Made by a program: the position numbers and the translations under genes
Part shown: positions 14,809 through 41,454 of the stretch, piece after piece
Numbering within the stretch: the stretch's first letter is position 1
Layout: each line of letters opens with the position of its first letter
Notes under the pieces: model-generated
What the model was told of the DNA's origin: nothing
Database searches by the model: none
What the model saw: only the letters and a program-made list of their open reading frames with translations
Source of the DNA: Phycisphaeraceae bacterium
GTDB taxonomy: Bacteria > Planctomycetota > Phycisphaerae > Phycisphaerales > Zrk34
Assembly (NCBI GenBank): GCA_028282805.1
Contig: JANQHD010000007.1
Span: 1-41,454 of the forward strand
Length of the DNA stretch: 41,454 bases
Direction: 5' to 3'

Positions 14809-15165
14809 GATTCACCTCCAGGATTGGTAGTATAAGACACCTTGTGTATTCGGATTTGCGATCTGACCCACCCTGAGCCCGTGAAATACCGCGATTCACA
14901 CTGATATTGACGGTCAGAGCGCCGGGGCGTTTCAAGAAAAGCGTCTCGAAAGCGGCCGGGGCGAAACTCATCGTAATGTCGTTCGGGCGGGTTACCGATA
15001 TGGACGGACGTGGGTCGGGGTCGTGTATCGGCGTTCATGCGCCGAGCCCAAGAGGGTCGATCAGGCATCACAGCGCGTTGCGTGCCGGGCGCAGGCCGGG
15101 CAGCTGTGGACGCGATCGATGGCTCATCCGATAAGGGCGGCGGCCTGAACAGGGATTGCGAACCT
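14809..15165. promoter_or_regulatory. Divergent intergenic region; promoter of the efflux operon
   Basis: 357 bases separate the divergent efflux operon and cheB. On the minus strand a good -10, TATACT (14834-14829), stands 15 bases before the GGAGGTG ribosome site; no strong -35 is visible. On the plus strand TCCGATAA (15127-15134) matches 7 of 8 bases of the flagellar sigma-28 -10 consensus 31 bases before cheB, but no TAAA -35 lies at the right distance. No gene is supported in this stretch; the open frame extending cheB upstream to 15010 lacks family similarity. Confidence 0.4.
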
Positions 15166-16227
15166 ATGGCTCAACCGATCCGAGTGCTGGTGGTCGACGA
15201 TTCGGCGTTCATGCGGACCGCGGTCAGCGGGATGCTCAAGAAAGCGTCCGACATCGAAGTCGCCGGCACGGCCCGCAACGGCGTGGAGGCGGTCGCGAAG
15301 GCGAAGGCGCTTCAGCCGGACGTCGTCACGCTGGACATCGAGATGCCGGAGATGGACGGCCTGACCGCCCTGCCGCAGATCAAGCGCGTGAGCAAGGCGG
15401 CGGTGATCATGCTCTCGAGCTTGACCCGTGAGGGTTCCGAGGCGGCGCTGGCCGCGATGCGGCGGGGCGCCGAGGACGTGCTGGCCAAGGACAACTCGCA
15501 GGTGTCGGTCAACATCGGCGACATCGAGCGCGACCTGCTGGAGAAGGTGCGGGTGTTCGGTCGGCGCTCGCAACAGAAGAAGCACACAGCAGCGACGCAC
15601 GACACGCGGGTGCCCCGCCACTTGGCGAAGCTGGACCTGTCGGACTACGACGCGCTGGCGATCGGTTCGAGCACGGGCGGACCGCCGGTCGTGGAGAGGC
15701 TGATCTGTTCGCTGCCGTCGGACTTCCCGCTGCCGGTGCTGCTGGCGCAGCACATGCCCGAGATGTTCACCCGCGCCATGTCCGAACGGTTGGACGGCCT
15801 GAGCGCCCTGCGTGTGCGCCACGCGCAGCCGGGCGTGCCGGTCAAGCGCGGCGAAGCTTATATCGCGCCGGGCGGCAAGCACTTACGCCTGCGCCACCTC
15901 AACGGCCGCAACCTGCGCCTCGAGGTCAGCGAGAAGCCGACCGAGGCGTTGTACAAACCCTCGGTCAACGAGCTGTTCGCCTCCGCCGCCGACGCGTTCG
16001 GCGAGCGCACCCTGGCGATCATGCTCACCGGAATGGGTGACGACGGGCTGATCGGCTCGCGCGAGCTGCACGCCAAAGGCGGCACGTTGTTGGCGCAGGA
16101 CGAGGCGTCGTGCGTGGTGTACGGCATGCCCAAAGCGGTGACCGAGGCGGGCATCGTCGCCGCCAGCTTGAACCCCGACCAGATGATTCAGCTGTTGAAC
16201 CCAAGCGCCGTTTCAGCCTGCAAATAA
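15166..16227 (+). CDS. cheB: CheB: chemoreceptor glutamate methylesterase/deamidase
   Basis: 353 residues, the usual CheB length, from ATG 15166. Residues 5-125 are a receiver domain: acidic pair D11/D12 and phosphoacceptor D57 (VTLDIEMPEMDG). A basic linker (~130-150) joins it to the methylesterase domain: AIGSSTGGPP with the nucleophile Ser169, LLAQHMPEMFT with the catalytic His, and MLTGMGDDGLIG with the catalytic Asp. It removes methyl groups from, and deamidates, receptor glutamates, opposing CheR. Phosphorylation by CheA relieves inhibition by the receiver. It stands apart from the cheW-R-A-X-Y group, separated by the FixJ-type regulator, porin and receptor genes, and no terminator follows it clearly. 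Confidence 0.96.
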   Translation: MAQPIRVLVVDDSAFMRTAVSGMLKKASDIEVAGTARNGVEAVAKAKALQPDVVTLDIEMPEMDGLTALPQIKRVSKAAVIMLSSLTREGSEAALAAMRRGAEDVLAKDNSQVSVNIGDIERDLLEKVRVFGRRSQQKKHTAATHDTRVPRHLAKLDLSDYDALAIGSSTGGPPVVERLICSLPSDFPLPVLLAQHMPEMFTRAMSERLDGLSALRVRHAQPGVPVKRGEAYIAPGGKHLRLRHLNGRNLRLEVSEKPTEALYKPSVNELFASAADAFGERTLAIMLTGMGDDGLIGSRELHAKGGTLLAQDEASCVVYGMPKAVTEAGIVAASLNPDQMIQLLNPSAVSACK

Positions 16228-16551
16228 AGCGGTTTTGCGCGTAGCCGGCGGCGCGGCGCGCAACGGCGTGTGGCGGCGCGTGGCACGCACGACCCGCCGC
16301 TACTTCCCAAACTTAACACGCGCTGAACGCGCAACGACGACGCCGGCGAAAGGTGCGCCGTTGTTGAAAAGTATTGCGCATTATGACGTAGAAACCAAAC
16401 ACGCGCCCTAAAGTTGTAGCAACCGAAAAGTCGAGAAGATAATGTGCGCAATGACGTCGCGTTCGGTTCACCCCTACGCGGATCAGGGTCGGGAATTAAG
16501 TAGCCGTATTACGGCGATTGGTCGGCCGCATCCGCAAAGGTGGTGGAATTG
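16228..16551 (+). promoter_or_regulatory. Upstream region of the FixJ-type regulator with repeats
   Basis: 324 bases without a supported gene. It begins with a TTGCGCG / CGCGCAA stem (16235-16241 with 16257-16263, 15-base loop) after cheB that lacks a T-run. Two related motifs follow: TGCGCATTATGACGTAG at 16375-16391 and TGCGCAATGACGTCG at 16445-16459, identical except for two extra bases and one substitution. A perfect 11-bp palindrome CCGTA-T-TACGG sits at 16504-16514, 37 bases before the start codon. These are candidate regulator-binding sites. Confidence 0.4.
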
Positions 16552-17241
16552 ATGCTAAGTCAGGTTTACGTAGTTGACGACGACGGGGGTTCACGGCGAG
16601 CGATCCGCGAGGTCCTGGAGCCGGTCAACATCTCCGTCCGCACATACCAGAACGCCGAGATGTTCCTCGCCGAGTTCGACCCGAAGCAGCCGGGGTGCGT
16701 GCTGTTGGACATCTGCATGCCGGGCATGAGCGGCCTGGAGCTCCAGCAGCGCATGAACCGCGACAAGCTGACCATCCCCGTGATCATGATGACGGGCCAC
16801 GGCTCGGCGCGCAGCGCCGTGCAGGCGATGAAGAACGGCGCGTTCGACTTCCTCGAAAAACCGCTCAACGCCACCGAGCTGGTCGACAGCGTCCACAGCG
16901 CGCTGCGCTACGACGAGTGCCAGCGCAGGGTCCAGGAGCACCGGCAGGTGTTCAAGCAACGGGTCAACACGCTGACCCCGCGCGAGAAGCAGGTCATGGA
17001 ACTGGTCGTCTCCGGCCTGGCGAATAAACAGATCGCCGCGGAGATCGGCGTGGGCCAGCGCACCGTCGAGGCCCACCGCAACCGCGTGATGCACAAGATG
17101 GGCGCCGAGAGCCTCGCGGCCCTGGTCAAGATGTCGCTGACGATCAACTGCCCCTACCAGAACGGCGCCTCACGCCTCGAGTGCGTCACGGGCAGCACGC
17201 ACTGCATCCCGACGATCGAAACCCACACCCCCGTGGCGTAA
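16552..17241 (+). CDS. FixJ/NarL-type two-component response regulator
   Basis: 229 residues from ATG 16552, behind AAAGGTGGTGG (an in-frame GTG at 16540 overlaps that site). Residues 3-120 are a receiver domain with acidic residues D9-D11, phosphoacceptor D53 (LLDICMPGMSG), the MMTGHG switch Thr and the conserved Lys in LEKPLN. Residues ~140-200 are a LuxR-type helix-turn-helix: LTPREKQVMELVVSGLANK, GQRTVEAHRNRVM. The receiver is of the FixJ subtype (VDDD, GHGSA). The last ~25 residues are an unusual tail with three cysteines. No cognate histidine kinase is adjacent; the next gene is a porin, so it may control the porin or receptor genes. A perfect terminator follows. Confidence 0.93.
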   Translation: MLSQVYVVDDDGGSRRAIREVLEPVNISVRTYQNAEMFLAEFDPKQPGCVLLDICMPGMSGLELQQRMNRDKLTIPVIMMTGHGSARSAVQAMKNGAFDFLEKPLNATELVDSVHSALRYDECQRRVQEHRQVFKQRVNTLTPREKQVMELVVSGLANKQIAAEIGVGQRTVEAHRNRVMHKMGAESLAALVKMSLTINCPYQNGASRLECVTGSTHCIPTIETHTPVA

Positions 17242-17269
17242 CCCGCCCACAACCGCTGACCGCCGACGC

Positions 17270-17297
17270 CCCGCCGAGCCCCCGCTCGGCGGGTTTT
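17270..17297 (+). terminator. Rho-independent terminator after the response regulator
   Basis: Perfect 10-bp GC stem CCCGCCGAGC / GCTCGGCGGG (17270-17279 with 17284-17293), loop CCCC, then TTTT. Confidence 0.92.
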
Positions 17298-17440
17298 GCG
17301 TAATCGCCGAAACGAGCAAGCCGGCTTGCGCCAACAACCGGTGCGTCAAATACCTATTGCACGCCTTCTTTAAAGAGTCGATCCCGAGGTTTAACCCCAG
17401 AACGTAACCCGAGGATGGATCCTCAAGGAAGGCTCAAAAT

Positions 17441-18763
17441 ATGGAACGCAAACGCATCGGACGCTACGCGCTAGGGGGGGTCATGGTCGCGCTGCTGCTG
17501 GTTGGGACCGCAGGGGCGGAAACGACAATCGAACAACTCCAAGCCAAGCTCGCCGAGCAGCAGCGTCGCCTCGACGCGCAGGAAGCCCGCATCAGCCAGC
17601 TGGTCAATCACAACGAGGCCGACTGGATGACCGAGCGGCGGGTCGAGCAGATCAAGCGGGTCGTCCACGAGGTGCTCGCCGACGCCGAGACGCGCGCCGC
17701 GCTGCTCAACGACGCGATCATCGCCGGGCACGACGGCGGCTTCTTCCTCGCCTCGGAAGACGGCAACCACCTGCTGCGCATCAAGGGCATGCTGCAGACC
17801 CGCTACATCACCAACCACCAGAACGACGGGCCCGACGACGACCACCGCGGCGGCTTCGAGATCTCCCGCACGCGCTTCGGGTTCATGGGCCACGTCATCG
17901 ACCCGTCGTGGAAGTTCCTCATCTGGACCGGCCACCACAAGGACGGCGACACCCTCCTGCTCGACGCCTACCTGACGAAGGTGCTCAACGGGCAATGGTC
18001 CGTCACCGCCGGCCAGTTCAAGGTCCCGTTGTGGCGCGAGTGGCTCGTGTCCGAGACGCGGCAGCAGTTCGTCGCCCGCTCGCTGCTCAACGCCTTCGCT
18101 GGAAGCTACACGCAGGGTGTGAAGGTCGACTTCAAGGACGACGCGCTGCACGTGACCCTGTCGATCAACGACGGCGTCGGCGGCATCAACAAGACGTGGG
18201 ACACCGAAGACACCGAATTGGCGCTCACCGGCCGGGTCGAGTGGCTCGTGTTCGGCGACTGGAAACAGTACAGCGACTGGGAGTCGTGGCGCGGTGGTGA
18301 GGCGATGCTCGTGCTCGGCACCGCGGCGCACTACCAACTCGGCGAATCCGGCACGGCCACCGTCGAGTCCGACATCGCACGCTGGACCGCAGACGCCCAC
18401 CTCGAGCTCGGCGGCGCCAACCTCTTCGCGGCGGTGATCACCGACCACGTCGACAACGGCGTCGACGTCAACCGTGTCGGCGTGCTGGTCCAGGGCGGCG
18501 TGTTCGTCACCGACAACATCGAGATCATCGGCCGCTTCGAATGGGCCGACCTCGACGAGGGCGCCGACGACACGCTCAGCGTCGTGACCGCAGGTTTCAA
18601 CTACTTCTTCGCGCAGCACAGGGCCAAGCTGACCGTCGACGTCGGCTACGGCTTCGAGCCCGTGCCCTCCACGATGTACAACACCTTCGCCGGCTGGCGC
18701 ATGGACTCCGTCGGTGAAGACGGCCAGGTCGTGGGCCGCGCGCAGATGCAACTGTTGTTCTGA
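17441..18763 (+). CDS. Phosphate-selective-porin-like (OprP/OprO) outer-membrane porin
   Basis: 440 residues; ATG behind AAGGA. Residues 1-26 are a signal peptide ending AGA. Residues ~28-55 form a coiled coil (TIEQLQAKLAEQQRRLDAQE), as in porins that trimerise or touch the cell wall through an N-terminal helix. From ~residue 100 the sequence is a beta-barrel: alternating strands such as FEISRTRFGFMG, VTAGQFKVPLWREWLVS (the OprP-type QFK/P signature) and VNRVGVLVQGGVFV, ending QMQLLF with a terminal Phe. The family makes passive trimeric channels, often anion- or phosphate-selective; substrate specificity here is not evident. A hairpin terminator separates it from the chemoreceptor gene 94 bases downstream, so partial read-through or separate promoters are both possible. 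Confidence 0.85.
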   Translation: MERKRIGRYALGGVMVALLLVGTAGAETTIEQLQAKLAEQQRRLDAQEARISQLVNHNEADWMTERRVEQIKRVVHEVLADAETRAALLNDAIIAGHDGGFFLASEDGNHLLRIKGMLQTRYITNHQNDGPDDDHRGGFEISRTRFGFMGHVIDPSWKFLIWTGHHKDGDTLLLDAYLTKVLNGQWSVTAGQFKVPLWREWLVSETRQQFVARSLLNAFAGSYTQGVKVDFKDDALHVTLSINDGVGGINKTWDTEDTELALTGRVEWLVFGDWKQYSDWESWRGGEAMLVLGTAAHYQLGESGTATVESDIARWTADAHLELGGANLFAAVITDHVDNGVDVNRVGVLVQGGVFVTDNIEIIGRFEWADLDEGADDTLSVVTAGFNYFFAQHRAKLTVDVGYGFEPVPSTMYNTFAGWRMDSVGEDGQVVGRAQMQLLF

Positions 18764-18770
18764 GCGAGCA

Positions 18771-18812
18771 CGCGTCCGGCGTCGGCGACAGGCGCCGGAC
18801 GCGGCTTATTTT
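18771..18812 (+). terminator. Terminator or attenuator between porin and chemoreceptor genes
   Basis: Perfect 11-bp stem CGCGTCCGGCG / CGCCGGACGCG (18771-18781 with 18793-18803), 11-base loop, then GCTTATTTT. The stem begins 8 bases after the porin stop. Confidence 0.82.
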
Positions 18813-18857
18813 CAAAGTTAAATCAACCGCCCAACAAGGAATTACGGAGCGCAAACA

Positions 18858-20882
18858 ATGATCCGTCGTATCTTTCAAAACGGCAGCATCGCCCGCCGCA
18901 TCGCGATCGTCGCGGGCAGCCTGACCGGCTTCTCGATCGTCATCCTCACCGTCTTCGCCGTCAACCGGTCCACCGACGCGTTGCACGAGCTGGGCAAGAC
19001 CAACCTGGAACAAGCCGCCACCGACGCGAAGAACATGTGCATGGCCCAGCACGAGTTGCTCGAGTCGAAGCTCACCTCCGACCTGGCGTTCGCCGAGAAG
19101 CTGCTGGCGTTGGAGAGCGGCAAGGCCGACCGGTGGGACAGCGCCGTCGAGCTGAGCGACGCGACCGTCGCCGTCGGCCCGCACACCGTACCCATCGCGC
19201 ACTGCGGCGACGCGCTGATGACGGCCAACGAGCCGATCGTCGACGAGGTCCTCGCACGCACCGGCTCGACCTGCACCATCTTCCAGGTGGTCGGCCCCCG
19301 CTGGGTCCGCGTCTCGACCAACGTCAAGAAGCCCGACGGCTCGCGCGCCACCGGCACCACCATCGAGCCCGACTCACACGTGTACCAGCACGTCATGGCC
19401 GGCAAGACCTTCCGCGGGTCGAGCCTGATCATCGGCAAGCGCTACGAGAGCGCTTACCGCCCCATGCGTGACAAGGACGGCAAGATCGTCGCCGTGCTCT
19501 ACGTCGGCGTGCCCCACGACAGCTTCGAGGCGCTGCACGACGGGCTCAGTGCCATCGAGCTCGGCAAGGACGGCTACCTGTGGGCGATCGACAGCACCGG
19601 CACCTTCGTGCTGCACCCCGAAAAGCTCGGCGCCAACGCCTCGCAGTACGCGTTCATCCAGGAGATGATGAAGAACAAGGAAGGCTGGCTCACCTACGAC
19701 TGGGAGGGCCGGACCAAGCTGGGTTGCTACAGCTACTACGAGCCATTCGACTGGATCATCGGCGCGACGGCCTACCAGGACGACTTCAGCGCCGCGGCGA
19801 CCGAGCTGCGCACGTGGCTGGTCGGCTCGGCGGTGCTGTTCATCGTCGTCGCTTCGGCCCTGGCGTGGTACATCGGTCGCCGGATCGCCAGCGGCATCAA
19901 CAAGGTCACCGACGCGATCGACGACATCGCCCAGGGCGAGGGCGACCTGACCCGCCGCCTGCCGGTCGACAGCGAAGACGAGGTCGGCAAGCTCGCGCAG
20001 GGCTTCAACGCCTTCGTGCAGAAGATCCACGACATCATCACCGAGGTCGCGACGGCCACGCGTGACGTGTCCAGCGCCGCGACGCAGATCGCCGCGTCCA
20101 GCGAAGAGATGGCCAGCGGCATGAGCCAGCAGACCGACCAGACCACGCAGGTCTCCAGCGCCGTCGAGCAGATGTCGGCCACCGTGGTCGAGGTCGCGCG
20201 CAAGAGCGCCGACGCCTCGGGCAGCGCCGAGCAGGCCGGCACCCAGGCCACCGAGGGCGGCGAGATCGTCGACCAGACCGTCGAGGGCATGCGCGCCATC
20301 GCCACCGTCGTCAACGATTCCGCCGCCGCCATCAACGAGCTCGGCAAACGCGGCGAACAGATCGGCCAGGTCATCGAGGTCATCACCGACATCGCCGACC
20401 AGACCAACCTGCTGGCGCTGAACGCCGCGATCGAAGCCGCCCGCGCCGGCGAGCACGGCCGCGGCTTCGCCGTCGTCGCCGACGAGGTGCGCAAGCTCGC
20501 CGAACGCACCATGCAGGCCACCGACGAGGTCGCCACGTCCATCAAGGCGATCCAGGAAGAGACCAACGCCGCCGTGCAGCGCATGGGCGCGGGCACCGAG
20601 AAGGTCGGCGAGGGCGTGGCGCTGGCAGAAAAAGCCGGCGACTCGTTGCAGTCGATCGTCGACGGCTCGAAGACCGTCGCGTCGATGATCCAATCGATCG
20701 CGGCAGCCAGCGAGGAGCAGAGCGCCGCGGCCGAGCAGATCAGCCGCAACATCGAATCCATTAACGCCGTCTCGAAGCAGTCGTCCGAAGGCGCCAACCA
20801 GGCGGCCACCGCGGCCACGCAGCTCAGCGCCAAGGCCGAGCAACTCCAGAACCTCGTCGAGCAGTTCAAGATCGAGGCATAA
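18858..20882 (+). CDS. Methyl-accepting chemotaxis protein with a Cache_3-Cache_2 sensor
   Basis: 674 residues. TM1 at ~13-36 and TM2 at ~318-340 enclose a periplasmic sensor of ~280 residues. The sensor reads as Cache_3-Cache_2: the distal part has [19 protein letters not shown] and [20 protein letters not shown], the membrane-proximal part [17 protein letters not shown] and [16 protein letters not shown] domain follows ([17 protein letters not shown]), then the cytoplasmic coiled coil. The conserved tip that binds CheA and CheW ([20 protein letters not shown], then [13 protein letters not shown]) is at ~515-550. There is no C-terminal NWETF-like tether for CheR/CheB. It is the likely input for the che genes directly downstream. 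Cache_3-Cache_2 receptors commonly sense small organic acids; the ligand here is unknown. Confidence 0.96.
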
Positions 20883-20895
20883 AAACCCACTCTGC

Positions 20896-20935
20896 GCCGG
20901 GGCGGTTCCCTTATGACCCCAGGGGCCGCCCCGGC
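20896..20935 (+). terminator. Terminator or attenuator between chemoreceptor and cheW
   Basis: 14-bp stem (20896-20909 with 20922-20935; 12 Watson-Crick and 2 G-U pairs), 12-base loop, then TCATCTT. The stem is very stable, the U-tract poor. It would reduce read-through from the abundant receptor into cheW-R-A-X-Y. Confidence 0.65.
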
Positions 20936-20982
20936 TCATCTTACCGAAGCCCCGCAACGGGCACACGAAACGGAGACAGGTG

Positions 20983-21528
20983 ATGAGCAACCCAGAACCA
21001 ACAACCAACGCGGAAACCGACATCCACACGCCCGACAGCGCCGCCGCCGACTGCGACCGCCTGCAACTGGTGACGTTCGACGTGGGCGGGGAGGAGTTCG
21101 CCGTCGACATCCTCGCGGTGCAGGAGATCAACCGGATGATGCAGATCACCTGCGTCCCGCAGAGCCCCGACGAGGTCGAGGGCGTGATCAACCTGCGCGG
21201 CCGGATCATCCCGGTGATCGACCTGCGCAAGCGATTCAACATGGCGTCGCGCGAGCACGGCAACGAGAGCCGGATCATCGTCGTAGACGTCAACGACCAC
21301 ACCGTCGGCTTCATCGTCGACCGCGTGCACGAGGTGTTGCGCATCGACAGCTCGATCGTCGAGGCCGCCCCGTCGATCGTGACCAGCATCGACAGCGACT
21401 ACATCCAGGGCGTGGGCAAGCTCGAAGACCGCCTGCTGATCCTGATCAACCTCGAGCGGCTGTTCGACACGCAGCAGCTGCGCCAGATCAAAGAAGCCGC
21501 GCGGGGCGCCGAGCCGCAAGCCGCGTGA
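20983..21528 (+). CDS. cheW: CheW: chemotaxis coupling protein
   Basis: 181 residues from ATG 20983, seven bases behind GGAG (a GTG directly upstream is the alternative). After a ~25-residue acidic leader, a single CheW domain spans ~26-170: LVTFDVGGEEFAVDILAVQEI, VEGVINLRGRIIPVIDLRKRF, RIIVVDV, GFIVDRVHEVLRI, IQGVGKLEDRLLILINLERLF. The Arg in LRGRIIPVIDLR is the one used in receptor and CheA binding. It links the chemoreceptor tip to CheA in signalling arrays. First gene of the tight cheW-cheR-cheA-cheX-cheY group. Confidence 0.96.
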   Translation: MSNPEPTTNAETDIHTPDSAAADCDRLQLVTFDVGGEEFAVDILAVQEINRMMQITCVPQSPDEVEGVINLRGRIIPVIDLRKRFNMASREHGNESRIIVVDVNDHTVGFIVDRVHEVLRIDSSIVEAAPSIVTSIDSDYIQGVGKLEDRLLILINLERLFDTQQLRQIKEAARGAEPQAA

Positions 21529-21612
21529 CCCGCGCCGCGCACACACCGCAAGAGCCGTGAACAGGGAATTGACTTAGCCGGACGGGGGAATACCACCGAC
21601 CAGGAGTTGTCG

Positions 21613-22455
21613 TTGAACACCGCAACCTTGAAGATGTCTGACGAGCAGTTCGACCGGCTCCGCAAGGTCGTGTACGACAGGAGCGGCATCTGGTTCGCCG
21701 ACGGCAAGCAGTACGTGCTCGAGAGCAGGCTCTCGCGCCGGCTCGAAGAACTCGACATGACCGACTTCGATCAGTACCTGATGTACCTGACGATCGGCCC
21801 GTACCAGACGAACGAGTTCCAGGAAATGTTCGACCGGATCACGATCAACGAGACCAGCTTCTTCCGCAACGCCCCACAGCTCGACATCTTCGAGCGACGG
21901 GTGTTGCCGCAACTGCTGGAAGCGCGCAAGGCGAGCAAGACCCTGCGCCTCTGGTCGTGCGCCTGTTCGAGCGGCGAGGAGCCCTACACCCTGGCGATGC
22001 AGGTCCACCGCACGCTGGGCATCCGGCTGGCCGACTGGCGCATCGAGATCCTCGGCACCGACATCTCCGAGAAGGTGCTGCTGCAGGCCCAGCAGGGCGT
22101 GTACGGCTCGTACCCCTTGCAGAACGTCGAACCGCTGGTGCTGACGCGCTACTTCAAGAAGACACCCACCGGCCACGAGGTCGACCCCACGATCCGCTCG
22201 ATGGTCACGTTCGAGAAGATGAACATGAAGGACACGATCGCGGCCAAGCGTTACGGCACGTGGGACGTGATCTTCTGCCGCAACGTGATGATCTACTTCG
22301 ACCAACAGATGCGCCAGCGCTGCATCGAACTGTTCCACCAGCAGCTGGCCGACGACGGGACGCTGTTCATCGGCCACAGCGAAACGATCCGCAACCCGGA
22401 CCGGTTTACGGCGCGCAGTGAACCCGAATCCTTCGCATACCGACCGGTGAAATAG
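21613..22455 (+). CDS. cheR: CheR: chemoreceptor glutamate O-methyltransferase
   Basis: 280 residues. The start chosen is TTG 21613, six bases behind AGGAG; TTG 21607 abuts that site, and ATG 21634 is a shorter alternative. Residues ~10-75 are the helical CheR N domain (FDRLRKVVYDRSGIWF, LESRLSRRLEEL), then the SAM-dependent methyltransferase: ITINETSFFRN, the SAM-binding LWSCACSSGEEPYTLAM, LGTDISEKVL with the acidic ribose contact, and WDVIFCRNVMIYFD, ending GHSETI. It methylates receptor glutamates using S-adenosylmethionine. The stop is 11 bases before cheA. Confidence 0.95.
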   Translation: MNTATLKMSDEQFDRLRKVVYDRSGIWFADGKQYVLESRLSRRLEELDMTDFDQYLMYLTIGPYQTNEFQEMFDRITINETSFFRNAPQLDIFERRVLPQLLEARKASKTLRLWSCACSSGEEPYTLAMQVHRTLGIRLADWRIEILGTDISEKVLLQAQQGVYGSYPLQNVEPLVLTRYFKKTPTGHEVDPTIRSMVTFEKMNMKDTIAAKRYGTWDVIFCRNVMIYFDQQMRQRCIELFHQQLADDGTLFIGHSETIRNPDRFTARSEPESFAYRPVK

Positions 22456-22466
22456 GGACGCAACCG

Positions 22467-24614
22467 ATGTGTAGCTTGCAGGACCAAGACCCCTCGTTGC
22501 TCAACGACTTCGTGACCGAGAGCCGTGAGCTGATCGAGACGGTAGACCAGGACCTGGTCACGCTGGAGCAATCGCCGGAGGACCCGGAGCTGTTGAACCG
22601 CATCTTCCGTGCGCTGCACACGATCAAGGGTTCGAGCAGTTTCCTCGCGCTCGAGCCGGTCACGCGGTTCGCCCACGCCGGGGAAGACGCGCTCAACGCG
22701 CTGCGCAAGGCCGAGGCGGCCGTCACGGCGGACATGATGGACATGCTGCTGCGCGCCGTCGACGTGATCCGCGACCAGCTCGACGAGGTCGAGTCCGGCG
22801 AGGCGCCGCAAGCCGGGCCCGACGACCTGATCGAGGGCCTGCACCGCATCGGCGAGGAAGGCGTCCAACGCAACGAGCTCCGCGAAGACGAGGGGGAAAC
22901 GCCCGACGCCGACGACGCCTTCACCCTGCCGCCGGCCAAGCAGGACCTGTTGCAGTACATGATCGAAGACCTCATGGAATCGCTCGACCAGCTCGAGGCG
23001 ATGTTCGGCGAAGCGGTCGGCCACGAAGACACCGAGCAGCTTTCGCACCGGATGAAAGACATCACCGATGGCCTGGTGCGCTCGGCGGGCTTCTTCGAGG
23101 TCGACACGCTCAGCGACGAGGTCCAAACGCTGCACAAGGCTGCGCTGGCGCTGGGCGAGCTCGATGCGCAAGCGATCGCACCGCTCGTGGCCCACGTCAA
23201 CACGCTCGTCGACGCGGTGCGCCACCGCGCCGAAGCGATGAACGCCGGCAAACTTCGGTCGCATCATTGCGACGGCGTGTGCGCCCAAATCATCGCGCTG
23301 ATCGCCGGCGAGCCGCTGCCCGACCCGAAGGCCAACGAACCTAAAAAACAAGCGGAAACGGAGGCCGACGACAGGCCCGCCGCCGTCGCCCAACCCGACA
23401 AACCCACCGCGCACGTCGCCGAGCGCACCGTGCGCGTTGACGTCGAACGCCTCGAGGCGATGCTGAACCTCGTCGGCGAGCTTGTGCTCCAGAAGAACCG
23501 TGTGCTCGGCGCCGCCCGAAACGCGCAGCGCAAGGAATTGGACGGCGAGTTCTGCGACCAGCTCACGCAGGTCGGCTCGGACCTCGAACGCGTGACCGCG
23601 GACCTACAGACCAGCGTGATGAAGACGCGCATGCAGCCGCTCAGCAAGTTGTTCAACCGCTACCCCCGGTTGATCCGCGACCTGTCGCGCACCATGGGCA
23701 AGCGGATCGACCTGGAGATCATCGGCGGCGAAACAGAGGTCGACAAGTCCGTCATCGAATCGCTCGGCGACCCGCTGGTGCACCTGTTGCGCAACAGCGC
23801 CGACCACGGCCTGGAGGGCGCCGAGGAACGCGCCGCCGCGGGCAAAGACCCGCGCGGCAAGATCCAGATCGTCGCCAGCCAAGAGGGCAACCACGTGCTG
23901 GTGCAGATCATCGACGACGGCCGCGGCTTGAACACCGAGAAGATCGGTAAGAAAGCCGTCGAACGCGGGCTGGTCTCCGCGGAGAAGCTCGAATCGATGA
24001 GCCGGGCGGAGCTGCACAACCTGATCTTCCAACCGGGCTTCAGCACGGCGGAGGTCGTCTCCGACGTGTCCGGCCGCGGCGTCGGCATGGACGTCGTCCG
24101 CACCAACATCGCCAAGCTCAACGGCATCGTCGAGATCCAATCCAACCCCGACAAGGGCTCGACGGTCTCGATCCGCATCCCCCTGACCGTGGCGATCATG
24201 CCCGCGATGGTCGTGGAGGTCGGCGGCGGCCAGTACGCCCTGCCGTTGGCGAGCATCCTCGAGATCCTCCGCCCCGAGCAGGCGCAGGTGTCGACCGTGG
24301 GCCGGGAGCCGATGCTGCGCGTCCGCGAGAACGTGCTGCCCATCGTCATACTCGCCGACCACTTCGGTCAACGCTCGACAGAATCAAACCAGAACATCGC
24401 CGTGATCGTCGGCATGGGCGAGAAACGCCTGGCGCTGATGGTCGACGGCCTGATCGGCCAGGAAGAGGTCGTGATCAAGCCGCTCGACGACACGCTCGAA
24501 CGCGACCCGTCGATCAGCGGCGCCACCATCCGGGAAGACGGTGGTGTGAGCCTTATCATCGACATCGCAACCTTGTTTAAGACGTTAGACCGCCGGCAAC
24601 GCTACGCCGCCTGA
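22467..24614 (+). CDS. cheA: CheA: chemotaxis histidine kinase
   Basis: 715 residues. P1/HPt domain at ~8-110 with the phosphoacceptor His51 in RALHTIKGSSSF. A middle region (~155-285) replaces the usual P2 and reads as a helical bundle resembling a degenerate HPt (SHRMKDITDGLVRSAGFFEV), followed by a linker. P3 dimerisation helices at ~325-395 (RLEAMLNLVGELVLQKNR, MKTRMQPLSKLF). P4 ATPase at ~395-570 with HLLRNSADHGLE (N box), IIDDGRGLN (G1), FSTAEVVSDVSGRGVGMDVV. P5 CheW-like domain at ~575-712. It autophosphorylates in trans when receptors signal and passes the phosphate to CheY and CheB. Confidence 0.97.
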   Translation: MCSLQDQDPSLLNDFVTESRELIETVDQDLVTLEQSPEDPELLNRIFRALHTIKGSSSFLALEPVTRFAHAGEDALNALRKAEAAVTADMMDMLLRAVDVIRDQLDEVESGEAPQAGPDDLIEGLHRIGEEGVQRNELREDEGETPDADDAFTLPPAKQDLLQYMIEDLMESLDQLEAMFGEAVGHEDTEQLSHRMKDITDGLVRSAGFFEVDTLSDEVQTLHKAALALGELDAQAIAPLVAHVNTLVDAVRHRAEAMNAGKLRSHHCDGVCAQIIALIAGEPLPDPKANEPKKQAETEADDRPAAVAQPDKPTAHVAERTVRVDVERLEAMLNLVGELVLQKNRVLGAARNAQRKELDGEFCDQLTQVGSDLERVTADLQTSVMKTRMQPLSKLFNRYPRLIRDLSRTMGKRIDLEIIGGETEVDKSVIESLGDPLVHLLRNSADHGLEGAEERAAAGKDPRGKIQIVASQEGNHVLVQIIDDGRGLNTEKIGKKAVERGLVSAEKLESMSRAELHNLIFQPGFSTAEVVSDVSGRGVGMDVVRTNIAKLNGIVEIQSNPDKGSTVSIRIPLTVAIMPAMVVEVGGGQYALPLASILEILRPEQAQVSTVGREPMLRVRENVLPIVILADHFGQRSTESNQNIAVIVGMGEKRLALMVDGLIGQEEVVIKPLDDTLERDPSISGATIREDGGVSLIIDIATLFKTLDRRQRYAA

Positions 24615-38182: not shown

Positions 38183-41100
38183 GTGATCGATCGGTTTGTA
38201 TCGAGAGTCGTGGCACTATCGGTGTCGTTGGTTTGTTTGGTCGTGGTGACGGGCGTTGCCCGTGGGCAGCAACCGAACATCGTGCACATCTTCGTCGATG
38301 ACCTGGGCTGGGGGAGCGTGGGCTTCAACGGGCAGACGATGATCCAGACGCCCAACCTCGACGCGCTGGCAGCGGGCGGCATGAACTTCACCAACGCGTA
38401 CGCGGCGACGGTATGCGGGCCGAGCCGCGCCATGCTGTACAGCGGCTTCCACAACGGCCACACCAAGGCCGACCGCAACTCGAACCTCGGCGCCAACGCC
38501 TGGGTCGACGACGGGCAGACGGTCGCCGACCACCTCGGCGGCGCGGGGTACAACACCGCCGTGTTCGGCAAGTGGGGCTGGGGCGGCTCCAATGGCAGCG
38601 GCAACCTGCGCCCCAACCCGACGATCCAAGGCACCAGCTCGCTGCCCACCACACAGGGCTTCGACACGTTCTACGGCTACCTCAGCCACGGCCGGGCCCA
38701 CTCGTACCAGGTCGACTCGCTGTGGACCACGGAAGAGCCGTTCGACGACAACGGCAACGGCATCGACGAGGTGGGCGAGAAGTACCAGCCCACCGCCGAC
38801 AACGGCCTGTGGCTGGAGAAGACCGGCAACAACGCGGCGGACAACTTCGCGGTGCACACGTCGGACCTCGTGGCGCTGAAGACGGTCGAGTACATCGAAG
38901 CCAACGCCAACACCGGCACGCCCTTCTACCTCGAGCACGCGTCGACCATCCCCCACTTCGATATCGACTCGATCACCCAACAGCCCGGCTGGTTCGACGA
39001 CTACGTAATCGGCGACCCGAACACGGGCACCGAGATCGTGCCCGGCGCCAGCGGCTGGTCGAGCAAGCAGAAGAAATACGCCGCGATCATCACCCGGATG
39101 GACAAGCAGGTCGGCGACATCATCGCGGCGCTGCAAGACCCCGACGGCAACCCGCTGACCGACGACTCGGTGATGGATAACACGCTGATCATGTTCACCA
39201 GCGACAACGGCGCGACGGCCGAGGACGGCTCGCCGATCAACTTCTTCAACGCCTCGGGCGGCAAGCGCGGCGGCAAGCGCGACCTGTGGGATGGCGGCAT
39301 CAACGTGCCCATGTTCGCTTACTGGGAGGGCAAGATCACGCCGGGCACGACGTCGGACCTGTACACCGACCTGCCCGACTTCATGCCCACCGTGCTCGAC
39401 TACGCGGGCGTCGAGGCGCGCGTCGGGCTCGACGGCGTGTCGATCCGCCACACGCTGACCGGCGACGGGCTGGCCCGCCAGAAAGACTACATCGTGCAGG
39501 AGCACCACGAAGGCAACGGCCCCGACCCCGACGGCAAGAACGGCCGGTGGGCGATCATCAAGGACGACCACAAGCTCATCAAGTACTCCGACGGCACGCT
39601 GCGGCTGTACAACCTGGTCACCGACCCCGACGAGAACAACGGCCTGAACATCGCCGCCAACCAGGCGATGGTCGACGAGTTCACGGCGATCGCGATCGCG
39701 GAGGGCGCCGAGCAGGGCGACGCGTACACCGTGGTGTTTCAGGACTGGACCGGCGCCGACGGCGACGGCTTCAACGACGCGAGCAAGTGGGCCGGCACCG
39801 CCGGCGTCACCGACACGCCCGCGGCCAACTGGTCGGCGCTGATCGATAACACCGCCGGCGCCGCGGCGGTGACCAGCACGGACGTGAACACGACCGTGCT
39901 CGGCCTGGACGTGCGGGGCACCGGCGCCAAGCAGACCGTGCGCGCCAACCGCTTGACGACACTGACCGGCCGCAACGAGGTGCGCATCTCCGCCGGCGGG
40001 CGGGTCAACCTCGACCAGGCGACGCTGTCGACGGTGCGCTGGGTGGACGTCAAATCGGGCGGCGAGTTGACCGGCCACGGCACGGTGGTCGGCGACGTGT
40101 ACAACTGGGGCACGATCGCCCCGGGCCTGCCGACCGACCTGGGTCAGCCCGGCGCGCTGCCCGACCCGCCCGAGGTGCCGCAGGGCGTGGACACGGGCGT
40201 GGTCAGCGCGGTCGTGTTCGACTTCACGGGCGTGCAGGACGACGCGCCGCTGACGCAGACCTCGACGCTGAACCAGTACCTCGAGATCACGCAGGGCCTG
40301 GACTTTTCGGGCGCGACCTCCGCCCGCCACGCCAGCAAGCCCGGCAGTTCCGATGCCGGCGACGAGTTCAACGTGCAGGGCTGGGGCACGGGCACGACGC
40401 TGACCAACGCGATCAACGGCAACCGCTACATCGGCTTTGCCGTGCAGCCGGTGTTCGGCATCGAGATGCTGGTCGACACCGTGTCGTTCAACTTCTGGCG
40501 CAACGGCGTCAATGCGCCCAACGATTACGCGATCATGACCTCGCTCGATGCGTTTACCGCGGGCAACGAACTCGCCTTGATGACCGGCGTCACGGACGAA
40601 GGCATCGCCAACGACCACCTGCTGGTCGGCACGTACACCGGCGGGCAGTGGACGACCGATGAGGTCGAGGTCCGCTTCTACGGGTGGAACGCCAACACGA
40701 CCAACGGCAACACGCACGTCAACGCGGCGAGCATGACGGCGAGCTTCCGCACGATCACGGCGCAGACCGCGATCGCGTTCGACTTCACGGGCGTGCAGGA
40801 CGACTCGCCGTTGACCGCGACGTCGACACTCGACCCGAGCCTGAGCATCGTGCAGGGCTTCAGCTACGGCCCGGGCACCGGGCCACGCGGCAGCGAGAAC
40901 GACGGAAACGAGTTCAACGCCACCGGCTTCACCGCCAGCTCGCTGAGCAACGCGATCAGCAGTGGCGATTACCTGACGTACACCGTGCAGGCGGTGGCGG
41001 GCGTGGAGATGCAGGTGCACGACGTGAACTTCAACCTGTACCGCAACGGCACGAACTCGGCCAACGACTACGCGATCATGACCAGCCTCGACGGGTTTAC

Positions 41101-41454
41101 CAACGGCGACGAGCTGGCGACGCTGAACCTGCCCGACGGCGACATCGACATCAACCACCTGTTCACCGGTTCGTTCACCGGGGGCAGCGCGTGGACCAGT
41201 GACCCGGTCGAGGTCCGGCTGTACGGTTGGAACGCCGACTTCGGCAACTCCAACACGCACATCAACCAGGTCGACATGACCGCGTTCTTCCGCACGGTCG
41301 GCGGCGGCGAAGTCATGCTGAACCCCACCGGCACGCTGACGCTTGCCGGCGACTTCTACCACGTGGCCGGGGGCATGATGGCCGTCGACCTCGGCGGCAC
41401 GGACAACGCCGACCCGCTCGACCCGCAGTACGACAACCTCGTCGTCACCGGCGA
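38183..41454 (+). CDS. Secreted sulfatase with tandem beta modules, truncated at the window edge
   Basis: Open to the right edge, 1090 codons visible. The start is GTG 38183, six bases behind GAGG. Residues 1-28 are a signal peptide (VVALSVSLVCLVVVTGVARG). A type I sulfatase follows to ~520: metal-binding D39/D40 (HIFVDDLGWG), formylglycine motif Cys78 in VCGPSRAML, FGKWGWG, SHGRAHSYQV, the His pair in HASTIPHFD, FTSDNGA and KRDLWDGGINVP. Formylglycine conversion by a maturase is required in this family. Residues ~540-670 contain beta-strand repeats of autotransporter type (GGELTGHGTVVGDVYNWGTIAPG). Two copies of a ~187-residue module follow (starting 40208 and 40769, both opening FDFTGVQDD), then a further repeat (GTLTLAGDFYHVAGG). 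Probably acts on sulfated polysaccharide outside the cell. Confidence 0.93.
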   Translation, partial: MIDRFVSRVVALSVSLVCLVVVTGVARGQQPNIVHIFVDDLGWGSVGFNGQTMIQTPNLDALAAGGMNFTNAYAATVCGPSRAMLYSGFHNGHTKADRNSNLGANAWVDDGQTVADHLGGAGYNTAVFGKWGWGGSNGSGNLRPNPTIQGTSSLPTTQGFDTFYGYLSHGRAHSYQVDSLWTTEEPFDDNGNGIDEVGEKYQPTADNGLWLEKTGNNAADNFAVHTSDLVALKTVEYIEANANTGTPFYLEHASTIPHFDIDSITQQPGWFDDYVIGDPNTGTEIVPGASGWSSKQKKYAAIITRMDKQVGDIIAALQDPDGNPLTDDSVMDNTLIMFTSDNGATAEDGSPINFFNASGGKRGGKRDLWDGGINVPMFAYWEGKITPGTTSDLYTDLPDFMPTVLDYAGVEARVGLDGVSIRHTLTGDGLARQKDYIVQEHHEGNGPDPDGKNGRWAIIKDDHKLIKYSDGTLRLYNLVTDPDENNGLNIAANQAMVDEFTAIAIAEGAEQGDAYTVVFQDWTGADGDGFNDASKWAGTAGVTDTPAANWSALIDNTAGAAAVTSTDVNTTVLGLDVRGTGAKQTVRANRLTTLTGRNEVRISAGGRVNLDQATLSTVRWVDVKSGGELTGHGTVVGDVYNWGTIAPGLPTDLGQPGALPDPPEVPQGVDTGVVSAVVFDFTGVQDDAPLTQTSTLNQYLEITQGLDFSGATSARHASKPGSSDAGDEFNVQGWGTGTTLTNAINGNRYIGFAVQPVFGIEMLVDTVSFNFWRNGVNAPNDYAIMTSLDAFTAGNELALMTGVTDEGIANDHLLVGTYTGGQWTTDEVEVRFYGWNANTTNGNTHVNAASMTASFRTITAQTAIAFDFTGVQDDSPLTATSTLDPSLSIVQGFSYGPGTGPRGSENDGNEFNATGFTASSLSNAISSGDYLTYTVQAVAGVEMQVHDVNFNLYRNGTNSANDYAIMTSLDGFTNGDELATLNLPDGDIDINHLFTGSFTGGSAWTSDPVEVRLYGWNADFGNSNTHINQVDMTAFFRTVGGGEVMLNPTGTLTLAGDFYHVAGGMMAVDLGGTDNADPLDPQYDNLVVTG

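Follow-up and report, generated by a model that had tools for sequence, protein, structure and literature searches.

A gene at the end of the window (the whole 41,454-nucleotide stretch of DNA analysed here) appears to encode an S1-type sulfatase of a Phycisphaeraceae planctomycete, which looks exported and which continues beyond its catalytic region into a duplicated module. We favor, by a modest measure of confidence, a reading in which an exported sulfatase carries a cassette, the two modules in the slot of that cassette most likely act as carbohydrate-binding modules (CBMs), and the tail is sorted by an exosortase to the surface or matrix. Planctomycete sulfatases longer than 600 residues, with laminin G among their additional domains, are already in print (PMC4807772), as are multi-modular planctomycete CAZymes (PMC11131199). 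The former have in common with our protein that they are long sulfatases with accessory domains from the same phylum; however, the passage of PMC4807772 that describes them contains neither this module nor the cassette slot, and the word "PEP" is absent from its text. Multi-domain planctomycete sulfatases were thus already known, and what appears to be new here is the module and its slot.

The window comprises all of contig C12, one of 56 in a 3.9 Mb genome, such that the end of the window is also the end of the contig. No stop interrupts the reading frame between 38075 and 41452, and it runs up to that end. Translation most likely starts at the GTG at 38183, because a GAGG lies just upstream and a signal-peptide-like stretch follows (both judged by eye). 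As the first-pass annotation had proposed, the sulfatase is complete, its match covering positions 1-301 of the 301 in PF00884 (146.4 bits, curated cut-off 25), and the chain, said there to exceed 500 further residues, runs for about 600 past the sulfatase (Table 1). CGPSR, at residue 78 counted from the GTG, fits the C-x-P-S-R formylglycine-type sulfatase motif. The closest solved relative by sequence is the N-acetylgalactosamine-6-sulfatase 7ana (E 1.1e-50), and the further ones are other sulfatases, including some kappa-carrageenan sulfatases; these relatives do not pin down the substrate. A maturase-like radical-SAM frame on C51 is matched in two segments, neither of which (323.6 bits for one, 43.4 bits for the other) reaches the cut-off of 349.45. 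In all, the 3.9 Mb genome (G000) gives 91 match rows for PF00884, some of which are pieces of one gene. Elsewhere in the window, positions 15010-24614 hold chemotaxis genes for CheB-type, Cache/MCP and CheA-type proteins.

Table 1. Features of the sulfatase gene and of its probable continuation
Feature	Position	Strand	Basis
GTG start and signal-peptide-like N-terminus (likeliest start)	38183..38272	+	reading of sequence
S1-type sulfatase catalytic domain	38273..39412	+	PF00884, residues 42-421, E 1.5e-42
CGPSR formylglycine-type motif	38414-38428	+	motif position, inside catalytic domain
C-terminal sulfatase subdomain, SGSH_C	39275..39655	+	PF16347, residues 376-502, E 9e-11
Pre-cassette, strand-rich region WTG...GDVYNWGTIAPGLP, common to sister sulfatases	39746..40141	+	own profile, E 1.2e-59
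Module copy 1 (M1)	40208..40759	+	repeat comparison; model pLDDT 83.6, pTM 0.84
Module copy 2 (M2)	40769..41302	+	repeat comparison; dN/dS lower than M1
Post-cassette, first third (GTLTLAGDF...DPQYDNLVVTG)	41324..41452	+	own profile, positions 2-42 of 117; cut by contig end
Probable remainder of post-cassette and tail	C13:41477-42031	minus	57-base exact overlap of contig ends; outside window

The duplication within this chain is real. M1 and M2 are identical in 97 of 184 aligned columns (53%), and their alignment scores 473, whereas none of 1000 shuffles scored above 70, the highest value reached. The three signatures singled out in the first-pass annotation (FDFTGVQDD, DYAIMTSLD and VEVR[F/L]YGWNA) are present in both copies alike. 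The exact DNA match that it reported also exists, although its length is 28 bases rather than 27. Similarly, the module length of ~187 residues given there agrees with the first spacing between copies (561 bases, or 187 residues) but not with the second (543 bases, or 181 residues); the spacings are unequal because small gaps distinguish M1 from M2. Compared with the closest relative, L017, the M1 copies are 70% identical and the M2 copies 85%. M1 pairs with M1, and M2 with M2, across the two proteins, and the duplication therefore predates their split. A tree of the modules, in which 3 of the 13 inner branches are starred, supports the same pairing with L017, and we claim no further order of duplications. 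In this single species pair, dN/dS is 0.20 for M2, 0.45 for M1, 0.30 for the sulfatase and 0.48 for the pre-cassette; in 300 codon bootstraps of the same pair, M2 was lower than M1 in 99% and lower than the sulfatase in 83%, and M1 was higher than the sulfatase in 94%. M1 thus appears to be less constrained than the sulfatase, and M2 at least as constrained as the catalytic domain.

The module was described at first sight as belonging to no recognizable family, and this has held up. Scanning M1 and M2 with Pfam at E<=10 gave no CBM family, scanning the modules with NCBIfam gave nothing at E<=10, and PDB sequences searched with the module profile gave no match at E<=10; no named lectin or carbohydrate-binding family emerged from any of the three. 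There was nothing credible for the module in PHROGs, and M2 had no match in a plasmid collection at E<=0.001. A match of M1 to Mntp (E 0.0063; 16.7 bits against a cut-off of 24.4) was taken as chance, as it is below the cut-off and the family is one of membrane pumps. We found no description of the module or of the cassette in the open PMC literature, and the module is absent from the passages concerned in PMC12078418 and PMC11131199.

An AlphaFold2 model of the module based on 12 sequences (scores in Table 1) is nearly all-beta with one short helix. Foldseek with this model gave no match at E<=0.001, the best being BcsB at 1.5e-3. When 994 chains, drawn from Foldseek's top 1000 only, were structurally re-aligned, the ten best rows were CBM22, CBM27 and CBM15 modules, or the xylanases 2w5f, 2wys and 1us2, which we take to carry modules of the CBM22/CBM27/CBM15 type. 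These rows have Z scores of 10.6-9.2, rmsd values of 2.9-3.4 and identities of 9-13% over 126-142 of the 187 residues; the stated usual best of the re-alignment tool, for models with no clear match, is a Z of 7-8. The same list of folds contains MAM and gingipain adhesin domains (Z 8.0-8.7), which to our knowledge are not known as CBMs, as well as BcsB (Z 8-9). Because these folds are also near, the fold is no proof of glycan binding and does not point to one type of ligand. In a model of L017, each module copy separately matches CBM-type folds; this model is weak overall (pLDDT 65.4, pTM 0.41), and its post-cassette and end, mostly below 50, were left unused. We conclude that the module is predicted to be a beta-sandwich of the CBM type and is most likely a CBM-like accessory module that would bind glycans, which makes the new binding domain suspected in the first-pass annotation plausible. 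It has in common with CBM22, CBM27, CBM15 and CBM4 modules the predicted fold, the tandem use and the fusion to polysaccharide enzymes, but differs from them in having no Pfam or PDB sequence match to them, and only 9-13% identity in the top rows.

The enzymes to which the module is attached are consistent with such a role. At E<=0.001, the module profile matched 16 of 301 genomes of the order, five of them more strongly than 1e-50, and 12 of 392 genomes of the phylum (own genome included in both counts). A contig scan of genomes with the module gave seven loci, all from Planctomycetota according to their titles. Strong matches (E<=1.6e-49) comprise 12 distinct proteins in eight genomes, where G001 and PL25a_bin.124, and likewise G027 and 4_bin.8, are counted as one by their match positions. 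All 12, including that of the window, are fusions to polysaccharide enzymes: ten sulfatases, one GH16 enzyme (L021) and one PF11790 glycosyl hydrolase (L023). The ten sulfatases were called by hmmscan (window, L019, L020), by PF00884 match (C9, C14), by BLAST to own sulfatases (L017, L018), by tree and reading (L114, L115), or by reading (L022, which is cut at its start). The assignment of L021 comes from a phmmer match in the PDB to a GH16 endo-1,3-beta-glucanase (E 1e-18), GH16 being absent from its Pfam matches at E<=0.01. In a sulfatase tree of 16 hand-chosen rows, one clade comprises eight module-bearing and two module-free genes, and a ninth module-bearing gene lies outside it. The module label shows no significant clustering on this tree (as low a value arose in 76 of 500 shuffles), and we therefore claim no number of module gains or losses.

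At weaker scores (E about 1e-19 to 1e-12), the relatives are long proteins whose enzyme type is unassigned, two of them with a Pfam InlB-like repeat, and one lamin-tail protein. In the large proteins L111, L112, L113 and L116, distant modules number one to three per protein; the InlB-like repeat was recognized in L113 and L116 by Pfam and in L111 and L112 by eye, and L111-L113 have a common domain (YVEYSNETWN, by eye). Part of L113 had no match among PDB sequences at E<=1, and this protein was left out of the count of polysaccharide enzymes.

Within the genome itself, the modules occupy a position whose contents vary from one sulfatase to the next. They are flanked by the pre- and post-cassette, the former modeled as strands in the homologous region of L017 (pLDDT about 66-89). 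Profiles of both, seeded with our own sequences (that of the pre-cassette with the window sequence among others), were run on open frames of at least 150 residues from the window and 24 own-genome loci; the 24 were chosen mainly for long sulfatase frames, leaving out, for example, long frames on C6, C7, C31 and C52:204 kb. In this sample, eight own sulfatases have the pre-cassette. The slot that follows holds the module in three of them (window, C9 and C14, the last two with a second copy that starts before the contig end), is empty in the sulfatase on C13 (18 residues between cassettes), and is filled in the remaining four (the first gene of C9, C3, C50 and C43) by different inserts, which measure 193-262 residues with their flanks. 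The inserts of C50 (E 0.011) and C43 (E 0.11) show a weak likeness to CBM_4_9 that does not reach the cut-off, those of the first C9 gene and C3 drew nothing from Pfam at E<=1, and that of C50 has no credible PDB sequence match. The CBM_4_9-like inserts are the best indirect evidence, albeit thin, that the slot may serve binding modules.

Some further observations concern the module in this genome. The C9 (L007) and C14 (L008) contigs share their last 99 bases, which lie inside the second module of different sulfatases; recent copying or gene conversion between paralogs, or an end overlap made by the assembler, are possible origins. In the tail of a sulfatase on C16 (L082), visual inspection suggests a stretch that may be distantly related to the module (SSADGFAS, LTFRFYFLG); the profile reported nothing there at E<=1. 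A weak match to the module at C18 (E 0.005) was dropped, as it has one internal stop.

An explanation that we regard as unlikely, yet worth serious consideration, is that the modules are spacers, i.e., beta-sandwich beads that keep the sulfatase off its anchored tail and have no ligand. Such a role has been proposed for another beta-sandwich in polysaccharide loci, DUF1735 (PMC11216935), and it would suit modules whose copy number varies among relatives and whose slot may be empty. The two copies point in different directions: M1 is weakly constrained (0.45), as expected of a bead, whereas M2, at 0.20 against 0.30 and lower in 83% of the bootstraps, is under at least as much constraint as the catalytic domain. 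A conserved motif common to non-enzyme proteins (see below) would fit a spacer; the polysaccharide enzymes found as partners in 12/12 strong cases, and the weakly CBM_4_9-like inserts in two sister slots, argue against it.

The weakest relatives of the module are mostly small proteins: seven of the eight aligned are 244-314 residues long, and six of the eight have, by reading, a PEP-CTERM tail. Set against the module profile, their alignment gave a match of 99.0% (E 3.3e-18; 122 columns, 17% identity), compared with 0.4% for a post-cassette control; the match is confirmation and not independent discovery, given that the proteins were originally found with the module profile. The conserved [VI]E.R.Y motif is kept in these small non-enzyme PEP-CTERM proteins also, which suggests a structural motif rather than a ligand site. 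Stand-alone relatives of this kind, together with the nearness of gingipain adhesin and MAM folds, would be expected if the module served adhesion to the matrix or to other proteins, tying proteins sorted by an exosortase to the cell's own exopolysaccharide or surface layer, and not to a substrate. We consider this improbable, in that none of the 12 strong module proteins stands alone, and the small proteins, at ~17% identity, may have other roles.

The sequence beyond the window could be followed on a second contig. The last 57 bases of C12 are the end of C13 read backwards, and C13 carries the reading frame on through the post-cassette and a pair of dockerin-like loops into a PEP-CTERM tail. 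On this tail, which is joined to C12 by the 57-base overlap, TIGR02595 (PEP-CTERM) scores 20.4 bits, against a cut-off of 16. PF07589 is just under its cut-off there (20.0 vs. 20.7 bits), as is, by more, the type I dockerin PF00404 (14.6 vs. 22.9 bits), whose cut-off is exceeded by the relatives L021 and L023. A near-identical tail (94% over 382 columns) is also found at the start of C14, and the join of C12 to C13 is therefore probable rather than proven; in this repeat-broken region, the overlap suggests that the C13 tail probably belongs to the window gene. The frame of L017 does reach a stop, and its order after the sulfatase is pre-cassette, M1, M2, post-cassette, dockerin-like repeats and PEP-CTERM (the last two by reading). 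Downstream of the L017 gene there is a second sulfatase, which has no module and 52 residues between its cassettes; the next gene on C13 is also a sulfatase without the module, although the best own-genome match of that second gene is a different one.

With respect to anchoring, the genome has two exosortase matches (PF09721) above the cut-off and, with 150 of the 225 candidates scored, at least 129 PEP-CTERM matches at E<=0.01. Given these two exosortases and the PEP-CTERM tail on C13, an exosortase probably anchors the protein at the surface, which lends support to the cell-surface placement first suggested for it. Like known PEP-CTERM/exosortase substrates (TIGR02595), it would combine a C-terminal VPEP tail with exosortases in the genome, but here the tail lies on a separate contig joined via the 57-base overlap. 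Two other arrangements were rejected. The strands around the modules had been likened to autotransporter passenger repeats; however, the window protein gives no PATR (PF12951) match at E<=10, and the likeness to type V autotransporters is limited to PATR matches in two relatives, one just above the cut-off before the module of the GH16 enzyme (27.7 vs. 27 bits) and the other below it (17.7 bits). Secretion in the autotransporter manner was set aside as unlikely, since the window protein lacks PATR and the probable tail, joined through the overlap, has dockerin-like repeats and PEP-CTERM and no match to a beta-barrel model at E<=10. A cellulosome was rejected because the genome has no match to cohesin (PF00963) at E<=0.001.

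PEP-CTERM tails also mark other contig ends. Positions 1-177 of the window lie inside the dockerin-like/PEP-CTERM tail of another gene, and a plus-strand tail of this kind starts no more than 350 bases from the contig start in 15 of the 56 contigs of G000, with ~0.3 expected (the 350-base limit was set post hoc, and the count is from the 129 listed PEP-CTERM rows). Recycled tails seem to break this assembly. That an assembly error or chance event fused the sulfatase to unrelated sequence is nonetheless extremely improbable, and already refuted in practice by independent assemblies: a repeat does lie where this contig stops, and tails of this kind interrupt many of the contigs, but pre-cassette, module and post-cassette follow the sulfatase in the same order in L017, L018, L019, L020, L022, G078 and G084, so that the fusion is genuine and the gene does not end soon after the sulfatase.

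In the reading that we favor, that of an anchored sulfatase with CBM-like modules, the enzyme would be exported and then matured by a radical-SAM enzyme, for which the frame on C51 is a candidate. The protein would continue from the strand-rich pre-cassette through the exchangeable slot and the post-cassette to two dockerin-like calcium-loop repeats and the PEP-CTERM anchor. M1 and M2 would hold the enzyme on sulfated polysaccharide, and one of the two exosortases would cut and anchor the tail, thereby sorting the protein to the surface or matrix. A GH53 galactanase gene (PF07745, E 9.3e-97) is located at L006:1650-2879 on C13, near the C13 sulfatase; if the C12-C13 join is right, a galactan-type substrate is because of this neighbor a reasonable guess, no more.

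We further put forward, as a tentative proposal that may well prove wrong, that the module represents a new carbohydrate-binding family in Planctomycetota for sulfated polysaccharides, used as a cartridge in a fixed slot of exosortase-anchored sulfatases, GH16 enzymes and other glycosidases, where the content of the slot sets the polysaccharide for each paralog. Annotators could then name a domain that has no Pfam or NCBIfam match here, and a new CBM-like family would be a possible tool to detect sulfated algal glycans. For the organism itself, the many sulfatases in a 3.9 Mb genome raise the question of each enzyme's specificity, and a cassette slot filled with the module, with another insert or with nothing offers a testable answer, namely that accessory modules may direct related sulfatases to different polymers.
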